A stretch of 64,000 bases of DNA from Rhodospirillales bacterium (GTDB lineage: Bacteria; Pseudomonadota; Alphaproteobacteria; Rhodospirillales; Shumkoniaceae), in NCBI GenBank assembly GCA_028281785.1, contig JANQJG010000098.1, positions 1-64,000 of the forward strand. Direction: 5' to 3'. This document shows positions 3,858 through 45,728 of this stretch, one piece after another. A program made the position numbers and the translations under genes. Each line of letters opens with the position of its first letter. Positions within the stretch are counted from its first letter, which is position 1. The notes beneath the pieces are model-generated. The model was not told the DNA's origin. It searched no databases and saw only the letters and a program-made list of their open reading frames with translations.

Positions 3858-5141
3858 TCAATAAAAAGCGTTCGGAAGGACCAGCGCAATCTCGGGAAAC
3901 ACCAGTAGAATTCCGATCATCGTAAGGAGGGTCAGCACGAACGGTGCCACGCCGATGAATACATCATTCAATCGGCCTGAGCGGCGAATGCCCTGGATCA
4001 CATAGCACAGCATCCCAATAGGGGGCGTCAAAACGGACGTCTCGGCAATCAGCACCATCATCACGCCGAACCATACCGGGTCGAACCCCAGCGAAACCAC
4101 GATAGGCGTCACGATCGGAATGGTCAGTACGATCATGGCGAGCGTATCCATGAACATGCCGAGCACGAGAAAGATCGCAATGATGAAAATCATGGTCGTC
4201 ATGGGTGACCATCCCAGGTTCGTAATGACCTGATTGACCTGTGCCACCAGACCGACCGCACCAATGACGAAGTTGAGAAGGAAGGCCAGAATGGTGATCA
4301 GGATCATCATGGCGGAGGTCCGGATGGTCCCCTCCATCACCTCCCGCACCATTCTCGCGTTGACACGTCGCCGCCAGGCCGCGAACCCGAAGCTCGCGAT
4401 GACGCCGATCGCCGCGGCTTCCGTCGGTGTTGCCCACCCGGCATAGATGGAACCGATGACCAGCAGAAACAGAAGCACCGGTCCTGTGAGGTCGCCGAGC
4501 GCCCGAAACCGATCGGCCCAGGACGTCCGTATCCTGGTGCCGCCCCAGGACGGACGGATCATGCACGCGATGAAGATCGTGACCATGAACAGAAAGGCCA
4601 GGAGAAGGCCCGGAATGATTCCGGCCAGGAACAGCTTGGGCACGGACGTATCCGTCAGAAACCCAAACAGGATCATGTTGATCGAGGGCGGAATCAGAAT
4701 GCCGAGCGTTCCGCCCGCGGCAAGGCTGCCGAGAAACAGGCGTTCGTTATAGTCCCGCTTCCCGATCTGCGGCATCGCCGTGGTTCCGATGGTCGCCGCG
4801 GTCGCCACGCTGGACCCAGAGGTCGCGGCGAAAAGCGTGCAGGTTCCGATGTTGGCATGCATCAGTCCCCCCGGCAGCCACGAAAGCCATTGCGTCATGG
4901 CGTTGTACATGCGGTCGGCCATACCGGAACGCAGCAGGATTTCGCCCATCATGATGAACAGGGGGATGGCCACGAGGACGAAGTCGATGCTGTGCGACCA
5001 CGCGACTTCACCGAACGCGGCCTGCAACGGAAACGGCGAGTAAACGACATCCAGAAATATGGCCAGGACGCCGAGGACGACCGCGATCGGAAAACTAAGG
5101 GCAATGAGAACGAGAAGGACCACGGCGGTCGTGGTGAGCAC
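3858..5141 (-). CDS. dctM: TRAP transporter large permease subunit (DctM family)
   Basis: This 427-residue, very hydrophobic protein has the length and about 12 membrane segments expected of the TRAP large subunit, which carries out sodium-coupled uptake with a periplasmic binding protein. Family signatures visible include SGSSVATAATIGTTAMPQIG after the third or fourth segment, LIPPSINMILFG, and a late ETSVLTPPIGMLCYVI. The start is GTG at 5139-5141, preceded by AGGAGG at a normal distance. It is the last gene of an operon reading cyclase, binding protein, small permease, large permease, and lies 12 bp after the small permease. The substrate is not determined by sequence; the neighbouring D-glutamate cyclase suggests a glutamate or pyroglutamate-related compound. 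Confidence 0.93.
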   Translation of the reverse strand: MLTTTAVVLLVLIALSFPIAVVLGVLAIFLDVVYSPFPLQAAFGEVAWSHSIDFVLVAIPLFIMMGEILLRSGMADRMYNAMTQWLSWLPGGLMHANIGTCTLFAATSGSSVATAATIGTTAMPQIGKRDYNERLFLGSLAAGGTLGILIPPSINMILFGFLTDTSVPKLFLAGIIPGLLLAFLFMVTIFIACMIRPSWGGTRIRTSWADRFRALGDLTGPVLLFLLVIGSIYAGWATPTEAAAIGVIASFGFAAWRRRVNARMVREVMEGTIRTSAMMILITILAFLLNFVIGAVGLVAQVNQVITNLGWSPMTTMIFIIAIFLVLGMFMDTLAMIVLTIPIVTPIVVSLGFDPVWFGVMMVLIAETSVLTPPIGMLCYVIQGIRRSGRLNDVFIGVAPFVLTLLTMIGILLVFPEIALVLPNAFY

Positions 5142-34716: not shown

Positions 34717-35511
34717 TTACGCGGGCACACCGCGTGTGTTTCTGCGTCCGCGACGGTCGCGTTTGCCGGGACCGGTTTCGGGCTCCTCGGCGGCACTGAG
34801 AATTTTCAACGCCAAGGCCTGGGCCTGTTTCACCCGCTGTCGCTCAAGCAGCTCGGCGTCGTCTTCCAAACCGTTTTCAATGAACCTGACAAGCTCCCGC
34901 CAGCTCTTGACAGACTCGGTCCGGCGTTCCGGCGTCGACAACCCCAAGCGCGTGTAACGGGCGACCTGGCGGGCCAGCTGAAAAATGATGTCGCACAGCT
35001 TCTCATTGCCGGAGCGCGCCGCGAGGACATAGTTCATGCGCGCGCTGACCCGGAAGTGGACCTCGAGCTCGTTGTCCGTTTCCACATTCTGCTCGAGAAG
35101 CCCGCTGCCCTCCTTGAGAATACGCAGGCATTCGGGATCGGAACGCCGCGCGGCCAAGCGGGCCGCATGCCCCATCAGCACGGCCCGGATGTCGAAGATG
35201 TCGTGGACCTCCCGCGTTGTCAGGCGGGTGACCTGAGCGCCGCGCCGGGGGATGATCTCGACAAGCCCTTCCTTTTCGAGAATCCGCAGCGCATCACGCA
35301 CCGGGCCGCGGCTGACCCCGAACTGTTCCGAAAGGCTTTGCTCGGTGACGGATTCACCCGGCTGGTATTCTTCCCGAAGAATCGCCTCGGCCACCTGTTC
35401 CGCGATCTGCTCCGCCAGGGAGAGTGTACGCCAGCGGCCTCGCGGTTTCGGGAACAGCGAGGTTTCGATCGCGTCCTCAGCCCACCAGACTTGCATCTCG
35501 CTTTTGTCCAT
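34717..35511 (-). CDS. GntR-family regulator, FadR/FCD subfamily
   Basis: A 264-residue product with a GntR winged helix at residues 30-95 (AEQIAEQVAEAILREEYQPG, SEQFGVSRGPVRDALRILEK, GLVEIIPRRGAQVTRL) and a C-terminal FCD effector domain of helical type. FCD proteins often bind an organic acid through a metal site. Operators of the form TNGTNNACNA, expected for this subfamily, are present upstream of its own gene and at three promoters of nearby genes, which makes it the likely regulator of the TTT transporters and aldolase. It is separated by 87 bp from the KDG kinase gene upstream, so it may have its own promoter. Confidence 0.9.
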   Translation of the reverse strand: MDKSEMQVWWAEDAIETSLFPKPRGRWRTLSLAEQIAEQVAEAILREEYQPGESVTEQSLSEQFGVSRGPVRDALRILEKEGLVEIIPRRGAQVTRLTTREVHDIFDIRAVLMGHAARLAARRSDPECLRILKEGSGLLEQNVETDNELEVHFRVSARMNYVLAARSGNEKLCDIIFQLARQVARYTRLGLSTPERRTESVKSWRELVRFIENGLEDDAELLERQRVKQAQALALKILSAAEEPETGPGKRDRRGRRNTRGVPA

Positions 35512-35545
35512 GGGGTCCTCGCAATACCCGGCGTCAACATCCGGC

Positions 35546-35555
35546 GTGTTTACAA
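35546..35555. promoter_or_regulatory. Candidate autoregulatory operator of the GntR gene
   Basis: GTGTTTACAA lies 35 bp upstream of the GntR start. It matches nine of ten positions of the FadR-type consensus TNGTNNACNA and resembles the TTGTCAACAA sites at 39589, 39703 and 45107. Autoregulation is an inference from this match. Confidence 0.45.
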
Positions 35556-35598
35556 TATGTGCGTTGCGTTCGGCCAGTCCATTCGCAACTCACGGGAA

Positions 35599-36549
35599 TC
35601 AGCGCATGACGAACATATTGGTACTCAGCATTTCATCAAGATCCGCCTTGTTCGGCAGGGCCTCGATGTTACCGGGCAGGCGAACCGACCATCCAGCGAC
35701 GGCATTGCCCAGGGCCACCGCGTCCCGCAACGAACGATCCTCTAGCAGGCCGGCGATATACCCTGCGGCGAAGCTGTCGCCGGCGCCGAAGCGGTCGACC
35801 GGCTTCGCCAAGGGATACCCAGGGATCGCCTCCGCGCCGTCCGGCGTCGACAGGACCGCGCCGTCGACGCCGGTCTTGAGCACGACATGTGACAAGCCGA
35901 GACCGTGCAGGTAGCGCAAAATGTCCTTGTCCTTGGCGACACCCGTGAGCTTGATCATGTCTTCCCGCCCGGCGAGCACGTGGTCGGCCCGGCGCATCAT
36001 CGCTTCCAGGCACGGCCTGGCTTCCTCGGGCGGCCACACCTTGGCGCGGTAGTTCGGATCGAAGACGATGGTGACGCCCTTCGCCACCGCGATGTCGATG
36101 GCGCGCTCTACCGCAGCGCGGCAGGACGGGGACAGGCCCGGCGTGATCCCGGTCAAATGCAGCATGCGCGCCGACGCGATGGCATCCTCGGCCACGTCGT
36201 CCGGGCTCATCCCGGAAAATGCCGAGTCCTTGCGGTAGTAGTACACGGCCGATCGGCCCAGCGGCCGATTCTCTCGGAAGAACACGCCCGTCGGTGAGTC
36301 CCCGACCAGCCGGACATGCGAAACATCGACCCCTTCCGCCCGCATCACGCTCAAAACGTAGTGTCCGAACTCATCGTCGCCCAACCGGCTGATCCAGCTT
36401 GCCGAATGCCCCAGCTTGGCGACGCCCGCCGCGACGGTGCTCTCTGCGCCGCCGGGCCGGCGTTCGAACTCGGCGCAGTAGCGCAGCCGCCCGCCGCTTT
36501 TTGCGACGAGAACCACGCAGGTCTCACCGAGGGTCACCAGCTCCGGCAT
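35599..36549 (-). CDS. kdgK: 2-keto-3-deoxygluconate kinase (PfkB family)
   Basis: The 316-residue product matches KDG kinases: YYYRKDSAFSGMSPDDV, FDPNYRAKVWPPEEA, and the catalytic DRFGAGDSFAAGYIAG (Asp in GAGD). It phosphorylates 2-keto-3-deoxygluconate to KDPG, the central step of hexuronate and aldonate degradation. It begins 3 bp after the TctA stop, so it belongs to the TctCBA operon. That suggests the transported substrate is an aldonate, uronate or aldarate that feeds 2-keto-3-deoxygluconate. Substrate specificity within the PfkB family is inferred from the motifs around residues 90-115. Confidence 0.85.
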   Translation of the reverse strand: MPELVTLGETCVVLVAKSGGRLRYCAEFERRPGGAESTVAAGVAKLGHSASWISRLGDDEFGHYVLSVMRAEGVDVSHVRLVGDSPTGVFFRENRPLGRSAVYYYRKDSAFSGMSPDDVAEDAIASARMLHLTGITPGLSPSCRAAVERAIDIAVAKGVTIVFDPNYRAKVWPPEEARPCLEAMMRRADHVLAGREDMIKLTGVAKDKDILRYLHGLGLSHVVLKTGVDGAVLSTPDGAEAIPGYPLAKPVDRFGAGDSFAAGYIAGLLEDRSLRDAVALGNAVAGWSVRLPGNIEALPNKADLDEMLSTNMFVMR

Positions 36550-36552
36550 GGG

Positions 36553-38055
36553 CTATTCCTCCAATTTCATTTTGCGTCCTAAAAACCATCGGGTGAGGAG
36601 TGGGCTCAACAGCAGCACCACAATGGCGACGAGAAGGCTCGCGCTCAACGGACGGGTCAAGAACCCCAAGGGGTTGCCGTCGTCGAGGATCAGTGCCCGC
36701 CGCAGATTGTCCTCGACCAGGGGGCCCAGGATGAATCCCAGAACCATTGGCGCCACCGGAAGCGCGATCTTGCGCATCACATAGCCGACGACACCGAAGA
36801 CGATCAGGACGCCGATGTCGAAGACGCTGTTCTGCGCGGCGTATGCCCCGATGATGCAAAACGCGAGGACGACCGGCATCAGGTAGCGTTGCGGGGTTTC
36901 CAGAAGCCTGAGGATGAACCGCAGGCCGGTGAGGCCAATGATCACGAAAAGAATATTACCCAGGATGAACATGATGAACAGGCTCGACACCAGATCCGGC
37001 CGCTCGATGAAAAGGGCCGGGCCGGGTTGGAGACCATGTATCAACAGCGCCCCGATCAACACCGCCGTGACCGCGTCTCCTGGAATGCCAAGCGCGATCA
37101 TCGGGACCAGGGCGCCCCCGGTTCCTGAGTTGTTCGCTGCCTCGGAGGCGACGATGCCTTCGGGCGCGCCGGTTCCCAGCGCCTCCCGGTTCCGGCCCAC
37201 GCGCTTCTCCATCCCGTAGGAGACGACCGAGCCGATGGTCGGGCCGGACGCCGGCATCACGCCGATCAGCAGCCCGAGAAACGTGGAGCGAATGAGGACC
37301 GTTAGTTTCGTCGCCGCCTCCCGGAAGCTCTTGATGACGCCGGTGATCTCTTGGCGAACGGGTTCTTGCGTGGTCATGCGCCGTTCAACCGCCGAGAACA
37401 CCTCGGCCAGACCGAACAGGCCGATCATCACCGGAACGAAGGACAGGCCGCCGATCATCGCCGGCTGATCGAAGGTAAAGCGCGGATACGCGCCCGCGGG
37501 ATCGTTGCCGACGCAGGCGATCAGAAGGCCGAGCGCCCCCGCCAGCAGGCCCTTGAGGATGGAGGGGCTGATATAGGCGATGACCGCCAGGCCGAACAGG
37601 GCGACCGCGAAATACTCATGCGCCCCCAGCCGAATGGCCCATCGCGCGGCGATCGGCGCGGCCGCGACCAGGAAGAGCGCGCTGACCAGGCCGCCAAACA
37701 GGGAAGACATCGCGGCCAGGCCAATGGCGCGTCCCGCCTCGCCCCGCAGGCGCATGGGATAGCCGTCCAGGGTGGTCATGATGGCGGCCCCGGTGCCCGG
37801 AATGTTCAGCAGGATGGCGCCGATCGATCCTCCGAACGTACCCGCCGCGTAGGCCGGCAAGAGGATGGCGAACGCCTCCTGCGGGGTCAGCGTATAGGTC
37901 AGCGGAATCATGATGGCCACGGCCATGGCCGAGGTCAGGCCGGGCAACGCGCCGACCACGAGGCCGATCAGGCTGCCCAGAAAGACCAGGGCCAGCACGC
38001 TTGGCGTCAACACCAGGGGCAGGCCGATGGTCAGGGCTTCGGTGAAATCCAGCAT
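36553..38055 (-). CDS. tctA: Tripartite tricarboxylate transporter large membrane protein, set 1
   Basis: A 500-residue protein with about 11-12 membrane helices and the TctA signatures: LIGLVVGALPGLTSAMAVAI, GTFGGSIGAILLNIPGTGAA, VMPASGPTIGSVVSYG and NNSGTGGALVPMIALGIPGDA. TctA is the sodium-symport channel of a binding-protein-dependent secondary importer. It lies 12 bp after TctB, in order tctC-tctB-tctA-kdgK. Substrate by context: a sugar acid. Confidence 0.94.
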   Translation of the reverse strand: MLDFTEALTIGLPLVLTPSVLALVFLGSLIGLVVGALPGLTSAMAVAIMIPLTYTLTPQEAFAILLPAYAAGTFGGSIGAILLNIPGTGAAIMTTLDGYPMRLRGEAGRAIGLAAMSSLFGGLVSALFLVAAAPIAARWAIRLGAHEYFAVALFGLAVIAYISPSILKGLLAGALGLLIACVGNDPAGAYPRFTFDQPAMIGGLSFVPVMIGLFGLAEVFSAVERRMTTQEPVRQEITGVIKSFREAATKLTVLIRSTFLGLLIGVMPASGPTIGSVVSYGMEKRVGRNREALGTGAPEGIVASEAANNSGTGGALVPMIALGIPGDAVTAVLIGALLIHGLQPGPALFIERPDLVSSLFIMFILGNILFVIIGLTGLRFILRLLETPQRYLMPVVLAFCIIGAYAAQNSVFDIGVLIVFGVVGYVMRKIALPVAPMVLGFILGPLVEDNLRRALILDDGNPLGFLTRPLSASLLVAIVVLLLSPLLTRWFLGRKMKLEE

Positions 38056-38067
38056 GCTCCCCCACCC

Positions 38068-38502
38068 TCACGGCATGGGTATGCCGAAGCCAACGACGAA
38101 GAGCCCATAGAGTGCGATGCCGGCGGCCAGGCCGATGCCACCGGCGCGCACCCACGGGGCGCCGAGGATGCGCATGCCGATGATCAGGAACGCGACAACC
38201 GGCAGAAAGAGACCGAAAAGAACGAACGCCTGGGCAAACACGATCAGGGCGACAAACAACCCGGCCGCCGCCAAAAGCTCCGGCGACCGTTGGAACGGCA
38301 GCGCGAAACGGACGCCGCGTGCCACGCCATAGCCCAGTGAGATGAGACTCAGCGCGGCGATCAATCCGAGCACGAGCCACGGAAAGAACGCCGCGCCCAA
38401 CCCCTCTTGAAGGCCCTGGACCGGAAACGTGCGGGCCTCGATCCAGGCCAGGCCGGCGACGGCCAAGCCCAGAACGCCCGATGCCACATACGATCCCCCC
38501 AT
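38068..38502 (-). CDS. tctB: Tripartite tricarboxylate transporter small membrane protein, set 1
   Basis: The 144-residue product has four hydrophobic segments and a short PFQRSPELLAAAGLFV loop, the usual length and arrangement of TctB. It pairs with TctA in the inner membrane. It lies between tctC (39 bp) and tctA (12 bp). Members are poorly conserved, so the call rests on hydrophobic pattern and position. Confidence 0.88.
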   Translation of the reverse strand: MGGSYVASGVLGLAVAGLAWIEARTFPVQGLQEGLGAAFFPWLVLGLIAALSLISLGYGVARGVRFALPFQRSPELLAAAGLFVALIVFAQAFVLFGLFLPVVAFLIIGMRILGAPWVRAGGIGLAAGIALYGLFVVGFGIPMP

Positions 38503-38541
38503 GACGTTCGCCTCTTCGATCCTTTCCCGCCTTCCTGGCGG

Positions 38542-39522
38542 CTATCGCAGCATTCCCGCCTTTTCGATCAGCGCGCGGAACTCCGCGTCCACCTTCTGCA
38601 GATACGCGTCTCCCTCGGAGGGGGACAGGTACCATCCGCCCTGACCGCTCTTCTTGAGATGCTCCTGATAGGAGTCCGACTCATAGGCAGCTTTGATGGC
38701 GTCGGCTAGAACCTTTACCACCTCGTCCGGGGTTCCGGCCGGGGCGGCGAAACCGCGGACCGGGCCGAAGACGAAATCGAACCCCTGCTCCTTGAAGGTG
38801 GGAACGTCCGGGTAAGCCGGATTGCGCTCCTCCGCGGCAATGCCGATCATCTTGACCAGGCCGGCGCGGCTCATGGAATCGGCTTCCGGCGCGCCGGCCC
38901 CGGCCGCAACCACCTCTTCGCCCGCGACAGCCTTAAGGCCGCCGGCCGTGGCGCCCTTGTAGGTCACCGTCGTTAACTCGACGCCAAGCTTGTCCATGAA
39001 GGCTTCCCAGGCCCAGTGATAGGCCGTGGCCGGGCCGCCGTCGCTGACCTTCGCGCCGGGATTGGCCTTCAGCCAGTTCACAAAGCCGTCGACATCGTCG
39101 TAGGGCGCCTTTGCGTTCACGGCGACCCCCCAGGCGTCGGCGTTGACCATGCCCAGGAACCGGATGTCCTTCAGCGGGTCGACCCACGCCTTCGAGGTTT
39201 TCAGATACTTCTGAATCGCGGCGTTGAGGGGCAGGAAGATGGCGATCGTATACCCGTCGGGTTCCGCCGCGGCCAGCTCTTTCCAGGAAACCAAGCCACC
39301 GCCGCCCGGCTTGTTGACGGGGACGACGGGCTGGCCGAGCGCCTTTTCCATTTCGATGGCGATCTTGCGAGCCACGGTGTCGGTGCCGCCGCCGGCGCCG
39401 AACCCGATCAGCATCGTGACCGGCTTCTCGGGAAAGGCCGCCTGGGCGCCGGAAGCGGCGAGCGTCCCAGCGAAGGCGGCGATCATCGCCGCTCGAACGA
39501 CCGTTTTGAACGGGTGTTTCAT
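38542..39522 (-). CDS. tctC: Tripartite tricarboxylate transporter binding protein, set 1
   Basis: A 326-residue periplasmic protein with signal peptide (cleavage near AQA-AFPEKP) and the Bug/TctC signature FPEKPVTMLIGFGAGGGTDT at the mature N-terminus. The later VVPVNKPGGGG and AEERNPAYPDVPTFKEQGFD are also typical. The start ATG (39520-39522) has AAGGAGGAG upstream; the open frame continues 27 codons beyond but without a start signal. It captures a dicarboxylic or sugar acid. Its promoter has a GntR-type operator at 39589-39600. Confidence 0.93.
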   Translation of the reverse strand: MKHPFKTVVRAAMIAAFAGTLAASGAQAAFPEKPVTMLIGFGAGGGTDTVARKIAIEMEKALGQPVVPVNKPGGGGLVSWKELAAAEPDGYTIAIFLPLNAAIQKYLKTSKAWVDPLKDIRFLGMVNADAWGVAVNAKAPYDDVDGFVNWLKANPGAKVSDGGPATAYHWAWEAFMDKLGVELTTVTYKGATAGGLKAVAGEEVVAAGAGAPEADSMSRAGLVKMIGIAAEERNPAYPDVPTFKEQGFDFVFGPVRGFAAPAGTPDEVVKVLADAIKAAYESDSYQEHLKKSGQGGWYLSPSEGDAYLQKVDAEFRALIEKAGMLR

Positions 39523-39588
39523 CGTGCTCCTCCTTGTTTGCATCGTGGCAGCCGGATGACGGCCTATCACATTATCGCAAACATACAT

Positions 39589-39600
39589 ATTGTCAACAAT
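39589..39600. promoter_or_regulatory. GntR-type operator upstream of tctC set 1
   Basis: ATTGTCAACAAT is a 12-bp site containing TTGTCAACAA, which matches the FadR-subfamily consensus TNGTNNACNA. On the minus strand it contains TTGACA and so overlaps a -35 box of the leftward tctC promoter (-10 less clear). It is 67 bp upstream of tctC. Confidence 0.7.
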
Positions 39601-39685
39601 CAAACACTTTATCTCGTGGCTTCCGATCAGTGTTGCAGCTAGGCATAAGAAAAAGCGGGACTTTTTGACTCAGCGCTGTGCGAAC

Positions 39686-39735
39686 AAATTGTCAAATAAA
39701 TGATTGTTGACAATTTGAGCGTATCTCGGTATGAG
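39686..39735 (+). promoter_or_regulatory. Promoter and operator of the aldolase gene
   Basis: AAATTGTCAA (39686-39695) and TTGACAATTT (39707-39716) are perfect inverted arms. The 3' arm lies within ATTGTTGACAAT (39703-39714), the same operator word as at 39589 and 45107. TTGACA at 39707-39712 with TATGAG 17 bp later (39730-39735) forms a sigma70 -35/-10 pair reading into the aldolase gene. The operator thus overlaps the -35 box, an arrangement for repression. Confidence 0.7.
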
Positions 39736-39812
39736 TCGGCGGAAAAGCTCGGCACGTCTCGGCACGGCGTCGCGGCCGGCGAAAACCAGGATGAAGGAGA
39801 AGGAAACCGATC

Positions 39813-40703
39813 ATGAGCATGAAGAATTTCAAGGGGGTCATGCCCGCGCTGATCACGCCGTTCGATGCCGACGGCAAAATCGACGACGCCAAGTTCAGGG
39901 CTTTCCTGGACTGGCTGGTGCCGCAAGTGCACGGCCTCTACGTCGCCGGGTCTTATGGATCGGGACCGATCATGACGGTCCAGCAGCGCCAGCGCGTGGT
40001 CGAGATCGTAGCCGAGGTCGTCGACGGGCGCATCCCGCTGGTTCTTCACGCCGGCGACCCCGACACCTACACCACCGTCGCCTTGGCCAAGCATGGGGAA
40101 CGCTGCAAGGTCTCGGCGATCGCCTCGCTGACACCGTATTACTATCTGCACGGCCCGGAGAACGTCGAGGCCCATTTCCTGCGCCTCATCGACGCCGTCT
40201 CGACGCCGATCTACATGTACAACAACCCCAAATACACGAATTACTGCACGACGCCGGAGCAGGTCGCGAAACTCGCCGAGAAGGGCCTCGCCGGGATCAA
40301 GGACAGCAGCGCCAGCATCCAACTGTTCTACGATCTCGTCGCGGCGACCCTGGCGTTCCCGGATTTTCAAGTCCTGGTGGGATCGCAGACCATCCTTCTC
40401 CCGGCCCTGGTCGGCGGCGGCAAGGGCTGCGTATCGGGCCTCTCCAACCTGTATCCGAAGGCCGTCAACGGCATCTTCGAGGCGGCGGACCGGGGTGACT
40501 TCGCCGGCGCCCTCGATCTCCAGCGCGAGGCCAACAAGCTGAGAAAGCTCACCGGATCTGGTATTCCCGTGCCCTTCTATCACACGGCCCTGCGCTACCG
40601 CGGGATCGATATCGGCCTGCCGAAACTGCCGATGCTGCCGAAATCCGCCGAGGAAGAGACCCAGATCTTCAAGGAACTGGACAGCTACAAGCACTTCGAG
40701 TAG
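39813..40703 (+). CDS. Dihydrodipicolinate synthase-family aldolase/dehydratase
   Basis: The 296-residue product is a class I aldolase of the DHDPS family: VMPALITPFDADGKID at the N-terminus, VAGSYGSGPIM in place of the usual GTTGE loop, catalytic Tyr in IYMYNNPKYTN and Schiff-base Lys in LAGIKDSSASI. The changed first loop argues against lysine synthesis. The family also contains KDG aldolase, 5-keto-4-deoxyglucarate dehydratase and N-acetylneuraminate lyase. With a KDG kinase and two TTT transporters under one operator type, a sugar-acid substrate is likely. It is followed by a strong terminator. Confidence 0.87.
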   Translation: MSMKNFKGVMPALITPFDADGKIDDAKFRAFLDWLVPQVHGLYVAGSYGSGPIMTVQQRQRVVEIVAEVVDGRIPLVLHAGDPDTYTTVALAKHGERCKVSAIASLTPYYYLHGPENVEAHFLRLIDAVSTPIYMYNNPKYTNYCTTPEQVAKLAEKGLAGIKDSSASIQLFYDLVAATLAFPDFQVLVGSQTILLPALVGGGKGCVSGLSNLYPKAVNGIFEAADRGDFAGALDLQREANKLRKLTGSGIPVPFYHTALRYRGIDIGLPKLPMLPKSAEEETQIFKELDSYKHFE

Positions 40704-40715
40704 ACAGCCGGCACG

Positions 40716-40750
40716 GGCGCGCCCGTCGGTTTTCGGGCGCGCCTTCCTTT
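40716..40750 (+). terminator. Rho-independent terminator after the aldolase gene
   Basis: GGCGCGCCCG (40716-40725) and CGGGCGCGCC (40734-40743) form a perfect 10-bp GC stem with an 8-base loop, followed by TTCCTTT. It lies 13 bp after the aldolase stop and probably separates it from the YeiH gene. Confidence 0.8.
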
Positions 40751-40832
40751 CGATACGGTGCTCACTCGGAAGCGGAAGCAGGCCCGTTCCCGCTTCCAAC
40801 CGCTGTCGGGGCGCTGTCCCCGAGGGCACCCC

Positions 40833-41867
40833 ATGAGAGACTCCTCCCCCATGAGCGAGCCATCGCCGCCCCGGAAGCAGGCCGAGGCCATTCTTCAACG
40901 CATCCGCCGCCTGTTCCCGGGAGTCATCCTGTGCTTGACCGTCGTCGCCGCGGCGCGTTTCCTGTCCGATCACTACGGAGCCCCGCAGATGCTGTTTGCG
41001 CTGCTGCTGGGCATGGCCTTCCACTTCCTGGTGGAAGAGCCTTCCTGCGCGCCGGGTATCGAGCTGTCGGCCCGCACGGTACTGCGGATCGGAGTCGCCT
41101 TGCTGGGCATGCGCATCACGATCGACGAGGTCATGGCGCTGGGGGGCTTCTCCGTCCTGTGGATCGGTATCGGCGTCATCCTGACCATCTTCGTCGGGGG
41201 CGTGGCGGCACGCGCCTTCGGCCGACGCTTCGATTTTGGTGTGCTCACCGGCGGCGCCGTGGGCATCTGCGGCGCGGCCGCGGCGCTGGCAATCTCCTCG
41301 ATCCTGCCACGGCATCCAGCGTCCGAGCGGGACACCATCTTCACTGTCCTGGCGGTAACGACACTGTCCACCATCGCCATGGTCGCCTATCCCATCCTGG
41401 CTCTCGGGCTGGGCCTCGACACCTTGGATTCGGGCATCTTCCTCGGCGCGACCATCCACGACGTGGCGCAGGTGGTCGGCGCCGGGTACGGCATGTCGGC
41501 GGAGACCGGGGACATCTCCACCATTACCAAGCTGTTCCGGGTCATGATGCTGGTTCCGGTGGTCTTCGTGCTGTCGCTCGCGTTCCGCCGCCGCGGCGGC
41601 CAACAGGGAAAGACCCCATTGCCGGTGTTCGTGCTGGTCTTCTGTATGTTCGTCGGGTTCAACAGCTTCGGTCTCATCCCCGAACAGCTGCGCCTCCTGC
41701 TGGTGAATGCCTCCAGCTGGTGTCTGGTCACCGCCATCGCCGCGCTGGGCGTGAAAACCTCCCTGAAATCCCTCGTCGACGTCGGCTTCGTCCCCGTCGC
41801 GCTGATGGTGGCGGAGACCCTTTTCATCGCCGGCTGGGTGCTGGCCGGATTGATGATCGTCTTCTGA
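40833..41867 (+). CDS. YeiH-family putative membrane transporter (UPF0324)
   Basis: The product has about 9-10 membrane helices and the YeiH signatures LLGMRITIDEVMALGG, GGAVGICGAAAALAISSILP and GATIHDVAQVVGAGY. The family is often annotated as a putative sulfate exporter, with little experimental basis. I start at the ATG at 40833, preceded by GAGGGCACC; earlier in-frame starts precede it. It lies downstream of the aldolase terminator, and convergent with the second TctA gene. A role in exporting sulfite or another anion formed in catabolism is possible. Confidence 0.85.
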   Translation: MRDSSPMSEPSPPRKQAEAILQRIRRLFPGVILCLTVVAAARFLSDHYGAPQMLFALLLGMAFHFLVEEPSCAPGIELSARTVLRIGVALLGMRITIDEVMALGGFSVLWIGIGVILTIFVGGVAARAFGRRFDFGVLTGGAVGICGAAAALAISSILPRHPASERDTIFTVLAVTTLSTIAMVAYPILALGLGLDTLDSGIFLGATIHDVAQVVGAGYGMSAETGDISTITKLFRVMMLVPVVFVLSLAFRRRGGQQGKTPLPVFVLVFCMFVGFNSFGLIPEQLRLLLVNASSWCLVTAIAALGVKTSLKSLVDVGFVPVALMVAETLFIAGWVLAGLMIVF

Positions 41868-41909
41868 CATTGTTCGGCCAGTTCGGCATCGACGGGGCAT
41901 GCGCATCCC

Positions 41910-43418
41910 TCATTCGGGGCCCTTCGTCTTGCGCCGCCGCCCGAAACGGCCGATGACCGGCGCCAGGAACAAAACCACGCAGATGACCACCAGCAGGACC
42001 GCAACCGGCCGGTCGAGAATGGACAGGAAGCTGCCACCGGATATCATCAAGGCCGTCCGCAGCTTGGCCTCGGCGATCGGCGCGAGCACGAATCCGATCA
42101 CGAAGGGAGCCAGCGGGATGCGCGCCCGCTCCATCAGAAAGCCCAGCAGGCCGCATCCGACCATGACCCAGACGTCGAACATGCGGTTGTTCAATGCGAA
42201 GGATCCGACGACGCAGAACACCAGGATCGGCGGCATCAGAAGGTAGAGCGGAATGTCCGCCACCCGCCGCAGATAACGGATCAGCCCCATCATCATCAGG
42301 AACATGGCGATGTTGGCGATCAGGCAGGCCCCCATGATGACGTAGACAAGGCTGCTGTTCGTGGTGAACAGCAGCGGCCCCGGCGTGATGCCGTGGATGA
42401 TCATGGCGCCCATCAGGAACGCATCGGCGATGCTGCCGGGAATACCGAGGGATATCAGGGGGATGAGGGCGCCGCCGACGGTCGAGTTGTTACCGGTCTC
42501 GGAGGCGACGATACCCTCTTCCGAGCCCGTCCCGAACTTTTCCGGCCTCTTGGAGGTCGCCTTGGCGACCAGATAAGCCAGCACCGACCCGATATTGGCG
42601 CCGACCCCAGGCAGGATGCCGACAAACGTTCCGATCACCGAGGAGCGGACCAGGTTGACGCCATGCCGCCGCAGGTCGCTCAGCTTGGCCGCGATCCGGC
42701 TGACACCGACGCTTCGCTCCGGCTTGGCGTCGGCGTTGAGCATGTCGCTGACGACTTGGCTGATGGCGTACACGCCCACCAGGACCGGCAACAGCGAGAA
42801 CCCGCCCTCCATGGCGGGCATGCCGAAGGTAAGCCGCGGCATGCCGACCGAGGGGTCCTCACCCGGCAGCGCGATGAGGACTCCCAGCAATCCCGAGATC
42901 AGGGCGCGAGTGGTGCTGCCCTCGCCAACGGCGGAGATCAGCATCAGGGCCAGCAAGGTCAGCGCGAAGAACTCCCAGGGACCAAAATGGACGGCGGCTT
43001 CCGCCAGCGGCAGGGCTAACAGCACCAGGAACACCCATGACACGATCCCGCCGAAAAAGGACGAGAGCGTACCGAGCCCAAGGGCGCGGCCCGGCTGCCC
43101 CTTCTTCGCCATGGGGAAGCCGTCCAGCGTGGTCATCACGCTGGCCGGCGTCCCCGGCATGCGCAGCAGGGTGGCGCTGATCAGGCCGCCGCTGACCGAG
43201 CCGACATACTCCGAAACCAGCAGCACCATCGCCTGCTCGGGAGTAAGAAAAAAGGTCGCCGGCAGCGACAGCGCGATCAGCATGCTGCCCGTCAGCCCCG
43301 GAATGGCGCCAACGGTAATCCCCAGGAACACGCCGACAAGAAGATAGGGTGCGGTGGCGGGCGTCAGGACATGCCAAATCCCGCCCCCCAGTCCAGTGAG
43401 AATGCCGGATAAGTCCAT
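41910..43418 (-). CDS. tctA: Tripartite tricarboxylate transporter large membrane protein, set 2
   Basis: A 502-residue TctA: ITVGAIPGLTGSMLIALSLP, SEYVGSVSGGLISATLLRMP, GILPGVGANIGSVLAYLV and NNSTVGGALIPLISLGIPGS. It differs clearly from set 1 (for instance SGGLISATLLRMPGTPA against GGSIGAILLNIPGTG). It is the last gene of tctC-tctB-tctA set 2 and ends convergent with YeiH. Its operon has the same operator word as set 1, so two TTT systems share one regulator but may carry different acids. Confidence 0.94.
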   Translation of the reverse strand: MDLSGILTGLGGGIWHVLTPATAPYLLVGVFLGITVGAIPGLTGSMLIALSLPATFFLTPEQAMVLLVSEYVGSVSGGLISATLLRMPGTPASVMTTLDGFPMAKKGQPGRALGLGTLSSFFGGIVSWVFLVLLALPLAEAAVHFGPWEFFALTLLALMLISAVGEGSTTRALISGLLGVLIALPGEDPSVGMPRLTFGMPAMEGGFSLLPVLVGVYAISQVVSDMLNADAKPERSVGVSRIAAKLSDLRRHGVNLVRSSVIGTFVGILPGVGANIGSVLAYLVAKATSKRPEKFGTGSEEGIVASETGNNSTVGGALIPLISLGIPGSIADAFLMGAMIIHGITPGPLLFTTNSSLVYVIMGACLIANIAMFLMMMGLIRYLRRVADIPLYLLMPPILVFCVVGSFALNNRMFDVWVMVGCGLLGFLMERARIPLAPFVIGFVLAPIAEAKLRTALMISGGSFLSILDRPVAVLLVVICVVLFLAPVIGRFGRRRKTKGPE

Positions 43419-43439
43419 TCCCGCGCGCCCCTTCCACCC

Positions 43440-43931
43440 TCACGGGAGATCGATCAGCAGGAATTCGGTGAACACGACATGGGTTCCCACGGCCACCACG
43501 GCGGCGACGACAAGGGAGACGATCCGTCCTCGCCCCGTGCCGCCCTCGAGAAGGCGGCTGCCGATATAGGTGAAGATCAGGGTTGCAACCCAGAATGGGA
43601 TGTCCGTCAGGTCGAGCAGGACCACGTAGACGATAAATGCGGCCAGTGAGAGGGCGGTCCGTGATCCGATGCTCCACCGCGGCGCCGGCGCGTTGGTGCC
43701 GGTTTCCGCCGATCCACGATCCGGCTTTGCGAGCCCCTCCCCGAGGGTGAGCTCCTCGAAGACCATCAACGCCACAAGAACCAGCAGGCTGATCGCAACG
43801 AAATAGGGAATGGTTGCCGATCCGAAGCTGTCGAAAGCCAGTTCGGGCGCATTGGCCGCCTGCTGGATGGCCAGCCCCGCTAGAATGACGACGGCTCCGG
43901 TCGTCACCCAGGTCCAATTGCGCCTCGACAT
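43440..43931 (-). CDS. tctB: Tripartite tricarboxylate transporter small membrane protein, set 2
   Basis: The 163-residue product has four predicted helices (VILAGLAIQQAANAP, IPYFVAISLLVLVALM, SLAAFIVYVVLLDLT, SLVVAAVVAVGTHVVF) and a hydrophilic loop between the second and third. It lies 21 bp before tctA and 83 bp after tctC, with an attenuator-like hairpin between it and tctC. Confidence 0.88.
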   Translation of the reverse strand: MSRRNWTWVTTGAVVILAGLAIQQAANAPELAFDSFGSATIPYFVAISLLVLVALMVFEELTLGEGLAKPDRGSAETGTNAPAPRWSIGSRTALSLAAFIVYVVLLDLTDIPFWVATLIFTYIGSRLLEGGTGRGRIVSLVVAAVVAVGTHVVFTEFLLIDLP

Positions 43932-43956
43932 CCGCTTTCTCCCGGCAGCGCTTCAA

Positions 43957-44000
43957 GAAAAAGCGGGCAGTCCCCTCCCTTGGCCGAGGGCACCGCCCGC
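43957..44000 (-). terminator. Attenuator between tctC and tctB of set 2
   Basis: On the transcribed strand GCGGGCGGTGCCCT and AGGGGACTGCCCGC form a GC-rich stem of about 12 bp (small mismatch) followed by TTTTTC. It lies just after the tctC stop and before tctB. Partial termination here would give more binding protein than permease. Confidence 0.7.
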
Positions 44001-44014
44001 GATCAGGGAGACCG

Positions 44015-44974
44015 CTATTTCTTGCTCTTCATGGCCTGGGAAGCAATCGGCTCGATCTTCGCGTATTCGGCCGCGATGTAGTTCCTAAGCTCATCGCCGG
44101 CGCGATAGATGGGCAGGGTCAGGCGCTTGGTAAAGGCGTCCTTCACCTGTTGCGTGTCCATAGCCGCCTTGAAGATTTCAGCCAGCTTGGCGACGCGGTC
44201 GGCCGGCGTGCCCTTGGGCGCCAGCCACCAGTATTCGAAGCAGAAGGAAATGTCGAAGCCCTGCTCCCTGGCCGTTGGTATGTCGGGCAACCCGGGATGG
44301 CGCTCATCGGCGAGGATGGCCAAACCGCGCAGGCCGGCCGCGCGTCCGGCATTGAATTGACCGGCCGAAATCGCCGTCACATTGATATGCCCGCCCTTGA
44401 GATTGGTGAAATTGGCGACATCGCCGCCGATCTGGACGAAGCGGAACTGCGCGCCGGGCATGGTGCTTTGAAGAAGCAATCCCCCCATATGGTTGAGGGC
44501 GCCCAGATTGACGCCGTAGATCAGAGTATCGGGCTGGGCCTTGGCCGCCGAAAGCACGTCCTTCAGCGACTTGTGGGGGGCGGACTCCATGACCGCCACC
44601 GTCAGGCAGACATCGCCGGTTCCGGCGACGGGCTCGAAATCGCGATAGCCATAATCGGCGAGCCCCGTGGCTTCGCTTGTCAGCAGGGTGAGATGATTCA
44701 TCAAGAGCGTGTAGCCATCGGGCTCCGCCTCTTTGGCGGTGCGGGACCCGATCCGGCCGCCGGGGCCGGCGATGTTGGTCACGACGAAGGGAACGCTGGC
44801 CAAGTTGTTGGCCTCGATGGCGTTCTGAAACGTACGAGCGATCGCATCGGAACCGCCACCTGCCTTGAATGGAACGATGACCTTGATCGGTTTTTCTGGG
44901 TATTCCGCCATCGCGCTGCCAATCGTCGTCAGCGCAAAGGCGAAAGATGCAAGAACCGATAGGGTTTGACGCAT
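44015..44974 (-). CDS. tctC: Tripartite tricarboxylate transporter binding protein, set 2
   Basis: A 319-residue periplasmic protein with signal peptide (cleavage near AMA-EYPEKP) and the TctC N-terminal signature YPEKPIKVIVPFKAGGGSDA. The mature body contains NIAGPGGRIGSRTAKEAEPD and ERHPGLPDIPTAREQGFD, both common in the family. The start ATG (44972-44974) follows CAGGAGG. It is paralogous to the set 1 protein but not close, so the ligand may differ. Its promoter carries the GntR-type operator at 45107-45118. Confidence 0.93.
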   Translation of the reverse strand: MRQTLSVLASFAFALTTIGSAMAEYPEKPIKVIVPFKAGGGSDAIARTFQNAIEANNLASVPFVVTNIAGPGGRIGSRTAKEAEPDGYTLLMNHLTLLTSEATGLADYGYRDFEPVAGTGDVCLTVAVMESAPHKSLKDVLSAAKAQPDTLIYGVNLGALNHMGGLLLQSTMPGAQFRFVQIGGDVANFTNLKGGHINVTAISAGQFNAGRAAGLRGLAILADERHPGLPDIPTAREQGFDISFCFEYWWLAPKGTPADRVAKLAEIFKAAMDTQQVKDAFTKRLTLPIYRAGDELRNYIAAEYAKIEPIASQAMKSKK

Positions 44975-45085
44975 CGGGGTAGACCTCCTGTTTTCTGACT
45001 CCACGCCGCGACGGAACCGGCGGGAATGTTCGTTCGGTTGGTTTGTCGTCCGCGTGTCACGGACCGCCCTTCTTCGGGGATTTCG

Positions 45086-45118
45086 ATGCTATCTGCGGGA
45101 ATATTAATTGTCAACAAT
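45086..45118 (-). promoter_or_regulatory. Promoter and GntR-type operator of tctC set 2
   Basis: ATTGTCAACAAT (45107-45118) matches the operator upstream of tctC set 1 and that of the aldolase. Read leftward, TTGACA (complement of 45109-45114) and TAGCAT (complement of 45086-45091) are spaced by 17 bp and form a sigma70-like promoter, with the operator over the -35 box. It lies about 110-145 bp upstream of tctC set 2. Confidence 0.7.
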
Positions 45119-45191: not shown

Positions 45192-45728
45192 TTAAAAAGA
45201 TCCGTCGGGAACCGCGGGCTCGTCGGGTCGAATCTCCGACCGCCGCACTCCCGCGCGATGCTCGGTCCCGTCAGGATCCCCGCCTTCGACGAAGGTCGAG
45301 AGGTTGTCGGAAAGGCGATGAATTGTGCGCGCGAATCGTTCGATCTCGTCTTGGGAGAAGCCTTTGAACAGGATCTCCCAATACGCTTCGATGGCCTTGA
45401 ACGCCTGTTTGTGGACTTCGCGGCCCGCCGCCGTGATGCGGACATCGAAACTGCGCCTGTCTGAGCCTCGGACATGCCGGGTGACGAACTTCCGGCGCTC
45501 GAGAAGTCCCAACGTGCGCGAGAGGTTGTTGCGATCCTGCCCCACTCGGGCGGCCAACTCTCCCTGGCTGAGGCCGTCGGCCCGGCAAAGCTCGCGCAGA
45601 ATGATCTCCTGCTGCCGCGTGATCGGACAGCCGATCCCCTTGAGCAATCGAGAGAGAGTCAGGTTGACCAGCTTGTCGAACCGGGCCAGCGGCAGACGGG
45701 GATAAGAGATGGCGGCGTCTTTCTTCAT
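45192..45728 (-). CDS. MarR-family transcriptional regulator
   Basis: The 178-residue product has a MarR winged helix: LSQGELAARVGQDRNNLSRT as recognition part and LERRKFVTRHVRGSDRRSFD as wing with SDRRS. A long C-terminal tail (about 25 residues) follows. It is the last gene of a leftward unit with the zinc alcohol dehydrogenase, whose stop lies 19 bp upstream. It probably responds to a carbonyl or aromatic-acid ligand from that unit. No operator was identified. Confidence 0.88.
   Translation of the reverse strand: MKKDAAISYPRLPLARFDKLVNLTLSRLLKGIGCPITRQQEIILRELCRADGLSQGELAARVGQDRNNLSRTLGLLERRKFVTRHVRGSDRRSFDVRITAAGREVHKQAFKAIEAYWEILFKGFSQDEIERFARTIHRLSDNLSTFVEGGDPDGTEHRAGVRRSEIRPDEPAVPDGSF

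Follow-up and report, generated by a model that had tools for sequence, protein, structure and literature searches.

The window, by which we mean the whole analysed stretch of 64,000 nucleotides of DNA, contains a locus in which two gene sets for tripartite tricarboxylate transporters (TTT) are found together with genes for a sugar kinase, an aldolase-like protein, a GntR regulator and a MarR-family regulator. The genes and features of this locus are the following:

34717–35511, minus strand: gntR, GntR winged helix and FCD domain (PF00392, PF07729), proposed repressor
35545–35556, minus strand: candidate weak operator D, ATTGTAAACACG with two mismatches, 39 bp upstream of the gntR ATG
35599–36549, minus strand: kdgK-like PfkB-family sugar kinase, best NCBIfam model KDG/KDGal kinase, below cut-off
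36553–38055, minus strand: tctA1 (PF01970)
38068–38502, minus strand: tctB1 (PF07331)
38542–39522, minus strand: tctC1 (PF03401, on an ORF with an earlier start), first gene of tctCBA1-kdgK-gntR
39589–39600, minus strand: candidate operator A, ATTGTTGACAAT towards tctC1, with its centre 72 bp upstream of the ATG of that gene (39522), poor −10
39687–39696, plus strand: putative extra half-site AAATTGTCAA beside operator B, from sequence
39703–39714, plus strand: candidate operator B, ATTGTTGACAAT towards the DHDPS-like gene, with TTGACA-17-TATGAG and its centre 104 bp upstream of the ATG
39813–40703, plus strand: DHDPS / N-acetylneuraminate-lyase / KDG-aldolase superfamily protein (PF00701)
40714–40743, plus strand: GC-rich hairpin after the DHDPS-like gene, perfect 10-bp, z −2.8
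40852–41867, plus strand: yeiH-type putative sulfate exporter (PF03601; TIGR00698 below cut-off), start uncertain
41910–43418, minus strand: tctA2 (PF01970)
43440–43931, minus strand: tctB2 (PF07331)
44015–45004, minus strand: tctC2 (PF03401), start could be 44974, heads tctCBA2 behind operator C
45107–45118, minus strand: candidate operator C, towards tctC2, TTGACA-17-TAGCAT
45192–45728, minus strand: MarR-family regulator (MarR2; MarR_2), beside operator C, disfavoured as the regulator

The gaps in the series tctC1-tctB1-tctA1-kdgK-gntR, all on the minus strand, are 39, 12, 3 and 87 bp, and judging by this spacing the genes probably form one operon. The DHDPS-like gene is divergent from it, and tctC2-tctB2-tctA2 is a second minus-strand set. 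Both the kinase and the DHDPS-like aldolase match curated NCBIfam models only below the cut-offs. The hairpin at 40714–40743 may end or attenuate transcription before yeiH; with such a strong GC hairpin in between, co-transcription of yeiH with the DHDPS-like gene may fail, and we are unsure whether yeiH is a member of the regulon.

An earlier note on this DNA described four copies of a FadR-type operator, at 39589, 39703 and 45107 and, as a weaker copy, before gntR, and all four stretches were found within 1 bp of these positions. Three of them are strong and consist of the identical 12-mer ATTGTCAACAAT / ATTGTTGACAAT, with perfect ATTGT/ACAAT arms around a CA/TG centre, starting at 39589, 39703 and 45107; the 10-mer TTGTCAACAA is located at 39590–39599 (+), 39704–39713 (−) and 45108–45117 (+). 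In the 5.24-Mb genome the 12-mer has four copies, three of them in the window and the fourth on contig C77 (C77:6975), compared to 0.09 copies expected genome-wide from base composition. The three strong copies are more than chance: at least three copies in 9.6 kb have a P of ~1e-12 based on base composition, and three copies a P of ~7e-8 when the rate of the 10-mer in the rest of the genome is used. Further copies of TTGTCAACAA, on contigs C17 and C118, are within coding sequence, and we discounted them as targets. A literature search for TTGTCAACAA with GntR gave a single paper, on a Streptococcus pneumoniae two-component system, with no sign of relevance.

The weak copy before gntR fared less well. 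It was found as GTGTTTACAA at 35546, and its two-mismatch class occurs in the window at chance frequency (12 found vs 9.6 expected), so that by sequence alone operator D is not significant. It gains support only because its position, 39 bp before gntR, matches that of a strong site ~30 bp before the gntR of the relative in genome G217.

A weight matrix was constructed only from sites outside the window, i.e. five sites beside members of the GntR clade (see below) in other genomes and the site of an own-genome paralogue on contig C210. The matrix scan covered the 76.5-kb contig, while consensus patterns covered the whole genome. Operators A, B and C ranked 1–3 with 22.6–23.5 bits, and the next-best match had 14.3 bits, leaving a gap of 8 bits; the 12-mer of the half-site AAATTGTCAA ranked 5th and operator D 7th (12.0 bits). 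The half-site and TTGACAATTT of operator B together make a 10-bp inverted repeat across 11 bp (39687–39714). A similar arrangement of operator and half-site is also present near 4260 in the Paracoccus locus (L042).

Each strong operator contains TTGACA, reading towards its downstream gene. The overlap with −35 boxes pointed out earlier is therefore real, but it is automatic and not independent evidence, because TTGACA is part of the motif. The −10 boxes described at exactly 17 bp from two of the sites were also found, TATGAG at B and TAGCAT at C, both matching the −10 hexamer at 4/6 positions; about 3 % of random positions have such a −10 within 16–18 bp. Operator C was the sole promoter-like match at an operator in the promoter scan. 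Operator A has only poor −10 candidates. The hexamer in every site and the two well-spaced −10 boxes would also fit repeats that are only strong −35 elements (TTGACA) with no operator role. We consider this extremely unlikely, since both arms, ATTGT and ACAAT, are conserved beyond the hexamer, several sites of relatives have no good −10 or have TTGACA facing away from the gene (gntR of G217, C210), and genome G466 carries a palindrome centred on TCGACA.

The product of gntR has the GntR domain PF00392 at residues 32–94 (68 bits vs a cut-off of 27) and the FCD domain PF07729 at residues 104–222 (53 bits vs 24.3). Its winged helix-turn-helix, FCD domain and TKGT-N2/3-ACMA type of operator (TTGT-CA-ACAA at A–C and the relatives) place it in the GntR superfamily and its FadR/FCD subfamily. 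It is not FadR itself, as the NCBIfam FadR models gave only 20–23 bits against cut-offs of 189 and 249 and the operator has N2 spacing. The designation FadR-type thus applies to the operator as a GT-N2-AC variant of the subfamily, not in the sense of the N3 spacing of FadR's own site.

Relatives of this GntR were gathered by protein similarity alone and their surroundings were read afterwards. The closest is in G217 (47 %), and no relative was found closer than about 49 %; a single-protein scan of the genome contigs gave only two distant matches. In a tree of 60 FCD regulators, seven GntR proteins, that of the window included, form one clade with 100/100 support, and all paralogues from the same genome that are in the tree fall outside it. 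The loci of the clade (34717–35511 in the window, L044, L043, L066, L045, L041 and L042) have kept the YR-centred ATTGT-ACAAT operator. The three histidines which hold the metal in Atu1419, TM0439 and LldR (PMC7797058) are absent in 7/7 clade members, with Trp at the middle position in all, whereas other sampled FCD regulators outside the clade have mostly kept them. At these positions the window GntR has N, W and V (or R), in agreement with an alignment with 3sxy. The three His plus Asp/Asn of metal-dependent FCD regulators (TM0439, LldR, Atu1419, DgoR, CitO) were not found in it, and as the three metal histidines are absent it is an FCD regulator outside the metal-binding type.

At 7/7 clade loci a TTGTYRACAA-like operator stands in front of the operon with gntR or of the neighbouring one. 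In G217 TTGTTGACAA occurs twice, before the gntR gene itself and in the interval that separates a TauD gene from a tctC2 orthologue (50 %); orthologues of tctA2 and yeiH follow. The operator of G102 precedes an acyl-CoA carboxylase operon with gntR as the last gene, that of G151 is directly before gntR, and in G466 YeiH/CoA-transferase, gntR and TauE are each preceded by a site, three in all. On the Paracoccus plasmid pBEN ATTGTTGACATT, with one mismatch, heads a transporter operon with gntR last, and on a Variovorax plasmid AATGTCGACATT is 97 bp before gntR. In whole genomes the CA/TG-centred 10-mer TTGTCAACAA has two copies in G217, both at the clade locus, one in G102 and one in G151, both there as well, and three in G466, one at the GntR relative and two inside coding sequence; 5/7 of these copies are within 10 kb of a GntR relative (combined P ~3e-8). 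This comparative evidence connects the operator with the clade of the window GntR.

The same comparison bears on the MarR-family regulator at 45192–45728 as the DNA-binding protein at the operators. It is encoded next to operator C, and proteins of the MarR type, too, have short A/T-rich palindromes as binding sites. In G217, G102, G151 and G466, however, the operator is beside GntR, and BLAST of the compared flanks gave no MarR2-like gene. Also, a 52 %-identical MarR paralogue on contig C179 (L069) has no TTGTNNACAA within its 3.4-kb locus, and operators A and B are far from marR. We regard a role of MarR2 at the operators as very unlikely.

Another FCD-GntR paralogue of the same genome, e.g. 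that on C210, C77 or C189, could own the operators wholly or partly, with overlapping regulons. The genome is rich in such proteins: tblastn of the window GntR gave 43 matches, many of them FCD paralogues. Upstream of two other FCD-GntR genes, each at the head of a tctCBA set, TTGTCAACAA or ATTGTAAACAAT is found: the C210 gene (L004, G000:C210, 52–877) has ATTGTCAACAAA upstream, before gntR-tctCBA, and the C189 gene with its tctCBA operon (L005, G000:C189, 5375–6226) has ATTGTAAACAAT. The identical ATTGTCAACAAT is present at 6975 on C77 (L001, G000:C77, 3910–8814), with an enolase-DHDPS-gntR operon on one side and a divergent gene for an IlvD/Edd dehydratase on the other. This is the one further copy given by the genome-wide motif search that the earlier note had proposed, heading another sugar-acid locus, and it either serves a paralogue as operator or is a further target of the window GntR. 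Moreover, ATTGTNNACAAT with at most one mismatch is found within 350 bp upstream of 14/56 sampled FCD regulators, often with a TA centre outside the clade. As the CA-centred site is also at C210 and C77, cross-talk between the paralogues is possible. Ownership by a paralogue nevertheless seems unlikely, as the gntR of the window is surrounded by the three window sites, the operator also adjoins its closest relatives in each of four other genomes, and no own-genome paralogue in the tree falls in its clade.

Our preferred reading, which we consider highly probable based on these sequence comparisons, is that the GntR FadR/FCD regulator encoded in tctCBA1-kdgK-gntR binds ATTGT-YR-ACAAT operators and controls the promoters of tctC1, the DHDPS-like gene and tctC2. 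The proposal that one repressor joins tctC1, kdgK, the aldolase and tctC2 was thus largely borne out, with sites at all seven clade loci and operators A–C at the top of the matrix scan, except that kdgK has no site of its own and would be reached via the operon only, and that the single repressor, likely as it is, is not exclusive, the same sequence being found upstream of one or more GntR paralogues of the genome. As three perfect sites front target genes and the same site accompanies GntR relatives elsewhere, the system is in all likelihood a local regulon, unremarkable in kind but clearly delimited.

What the computations show is the motif, where it is placed and how it is linked to the GntR clade; binding, repression and an inducer would be expected by analogy with the family. 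A dimer of the window GntR would bind the operators at the −35 region of three promoters, those of tctC1 (and thereby of kdgK and gntR itself), of the divergent DHDPS-like aldolase and of tctC2, and probably also the weaker, autoregulatory site just before gntR. When no substrate is present, the bound GntR would block RNA polymerase. An organic or sugar acid taken up by the cell, or its catabolic intermediate, would bind to the FCD domain and release the operators, and the two TTT uptake systems, the kinase and the aldolase would be turned on together. Operators A and B are 114 bp apart centre to centre. Two bound sites of the Atu1419 system (PMC7797058) have a similar distance of 109 bp, and A and B could therefore be bridged by a tetramer or by looping.

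The regulon contents differ among the clade loci, which include TTT transporters, acyl-CoA carboxylases, ABC transporters and dioxygenases, and consequently a metabolic function does not transfer from one clade member to another. We suggest tentatively, as plausible rather than probable, that the clade represents undescribed FCD regulators which have lost the metal His, could sense an acid effector without metal, and have retained one ATTGT-YR-ACAAT operator across fully turned-over regulons. YeiH recurs near clade members (L044, 3735–8991; L066, 2692–16330), TauE/SafE is found in G466 and TauD in G217. These neighbours hint that the substrates of some clade members may be sulfonated. A sulfonate substrate is not claimed for the window system, because yeiH is set off from the DHDPS-like gene by the strong hairpin and the theme is absent from the loci of G102, Variovorax and Paracoccus.

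The outcome for this uncharacterised GntR is a concrete operator and a list of targets. It connects the two tripartite tricarboxylate transporters with a kinase and an aldolase, which narrows the search for their substrate, and the loss of the metal site in the clade is a testable structural question.

Sites with GT-N2-AC spacing have been described as a variant within the FadR subfamily, and FCD GntR regulons with such operators include those of GntR, UxuR, HypR, MdcY, PrpR and HpxS (Suvorova et al. 2015, PMC4494728). The window system shares with these regulons the winged helix and FCD domain, a palindrome rich in A/T whose TKGT/ACMA boxes are 2 nt apart, an operator adjacent to genes of transport and catabolism, a pair of sites in a divergon and additional, weaker half-sites. 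It differs in the centre of the operator, which is YR (CA/TG/CG) and in theirs TA, and in its gene content of two TTT systems, a kinase and a DHDPS-like protein. Atu1419 of Agrobacterium fabrum, a VanR-type FCD repressor (PDB 6z74 series), is likewise an FCD-GntR with a 10-bp GT-N2-AC palindrome at promoters, ATGTATACAT, and with multiple sites, in its case 109–190 bp apart and one of them degenerate (PMC7797058). Unlike the window GntR, which has 0/3 of the His, it coordinates Zn by Asn and three His, and the regulons of the two differ. With E. coli FadR the window regulator has in common the GntR family, the subfamily name and a site overlapping a promoter, whereas FadR has a longer GT-N3-AC site and a fatty-acid regulon. 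The window operator resembles the N2, VanR-like operators more than FadR's own N3 site.
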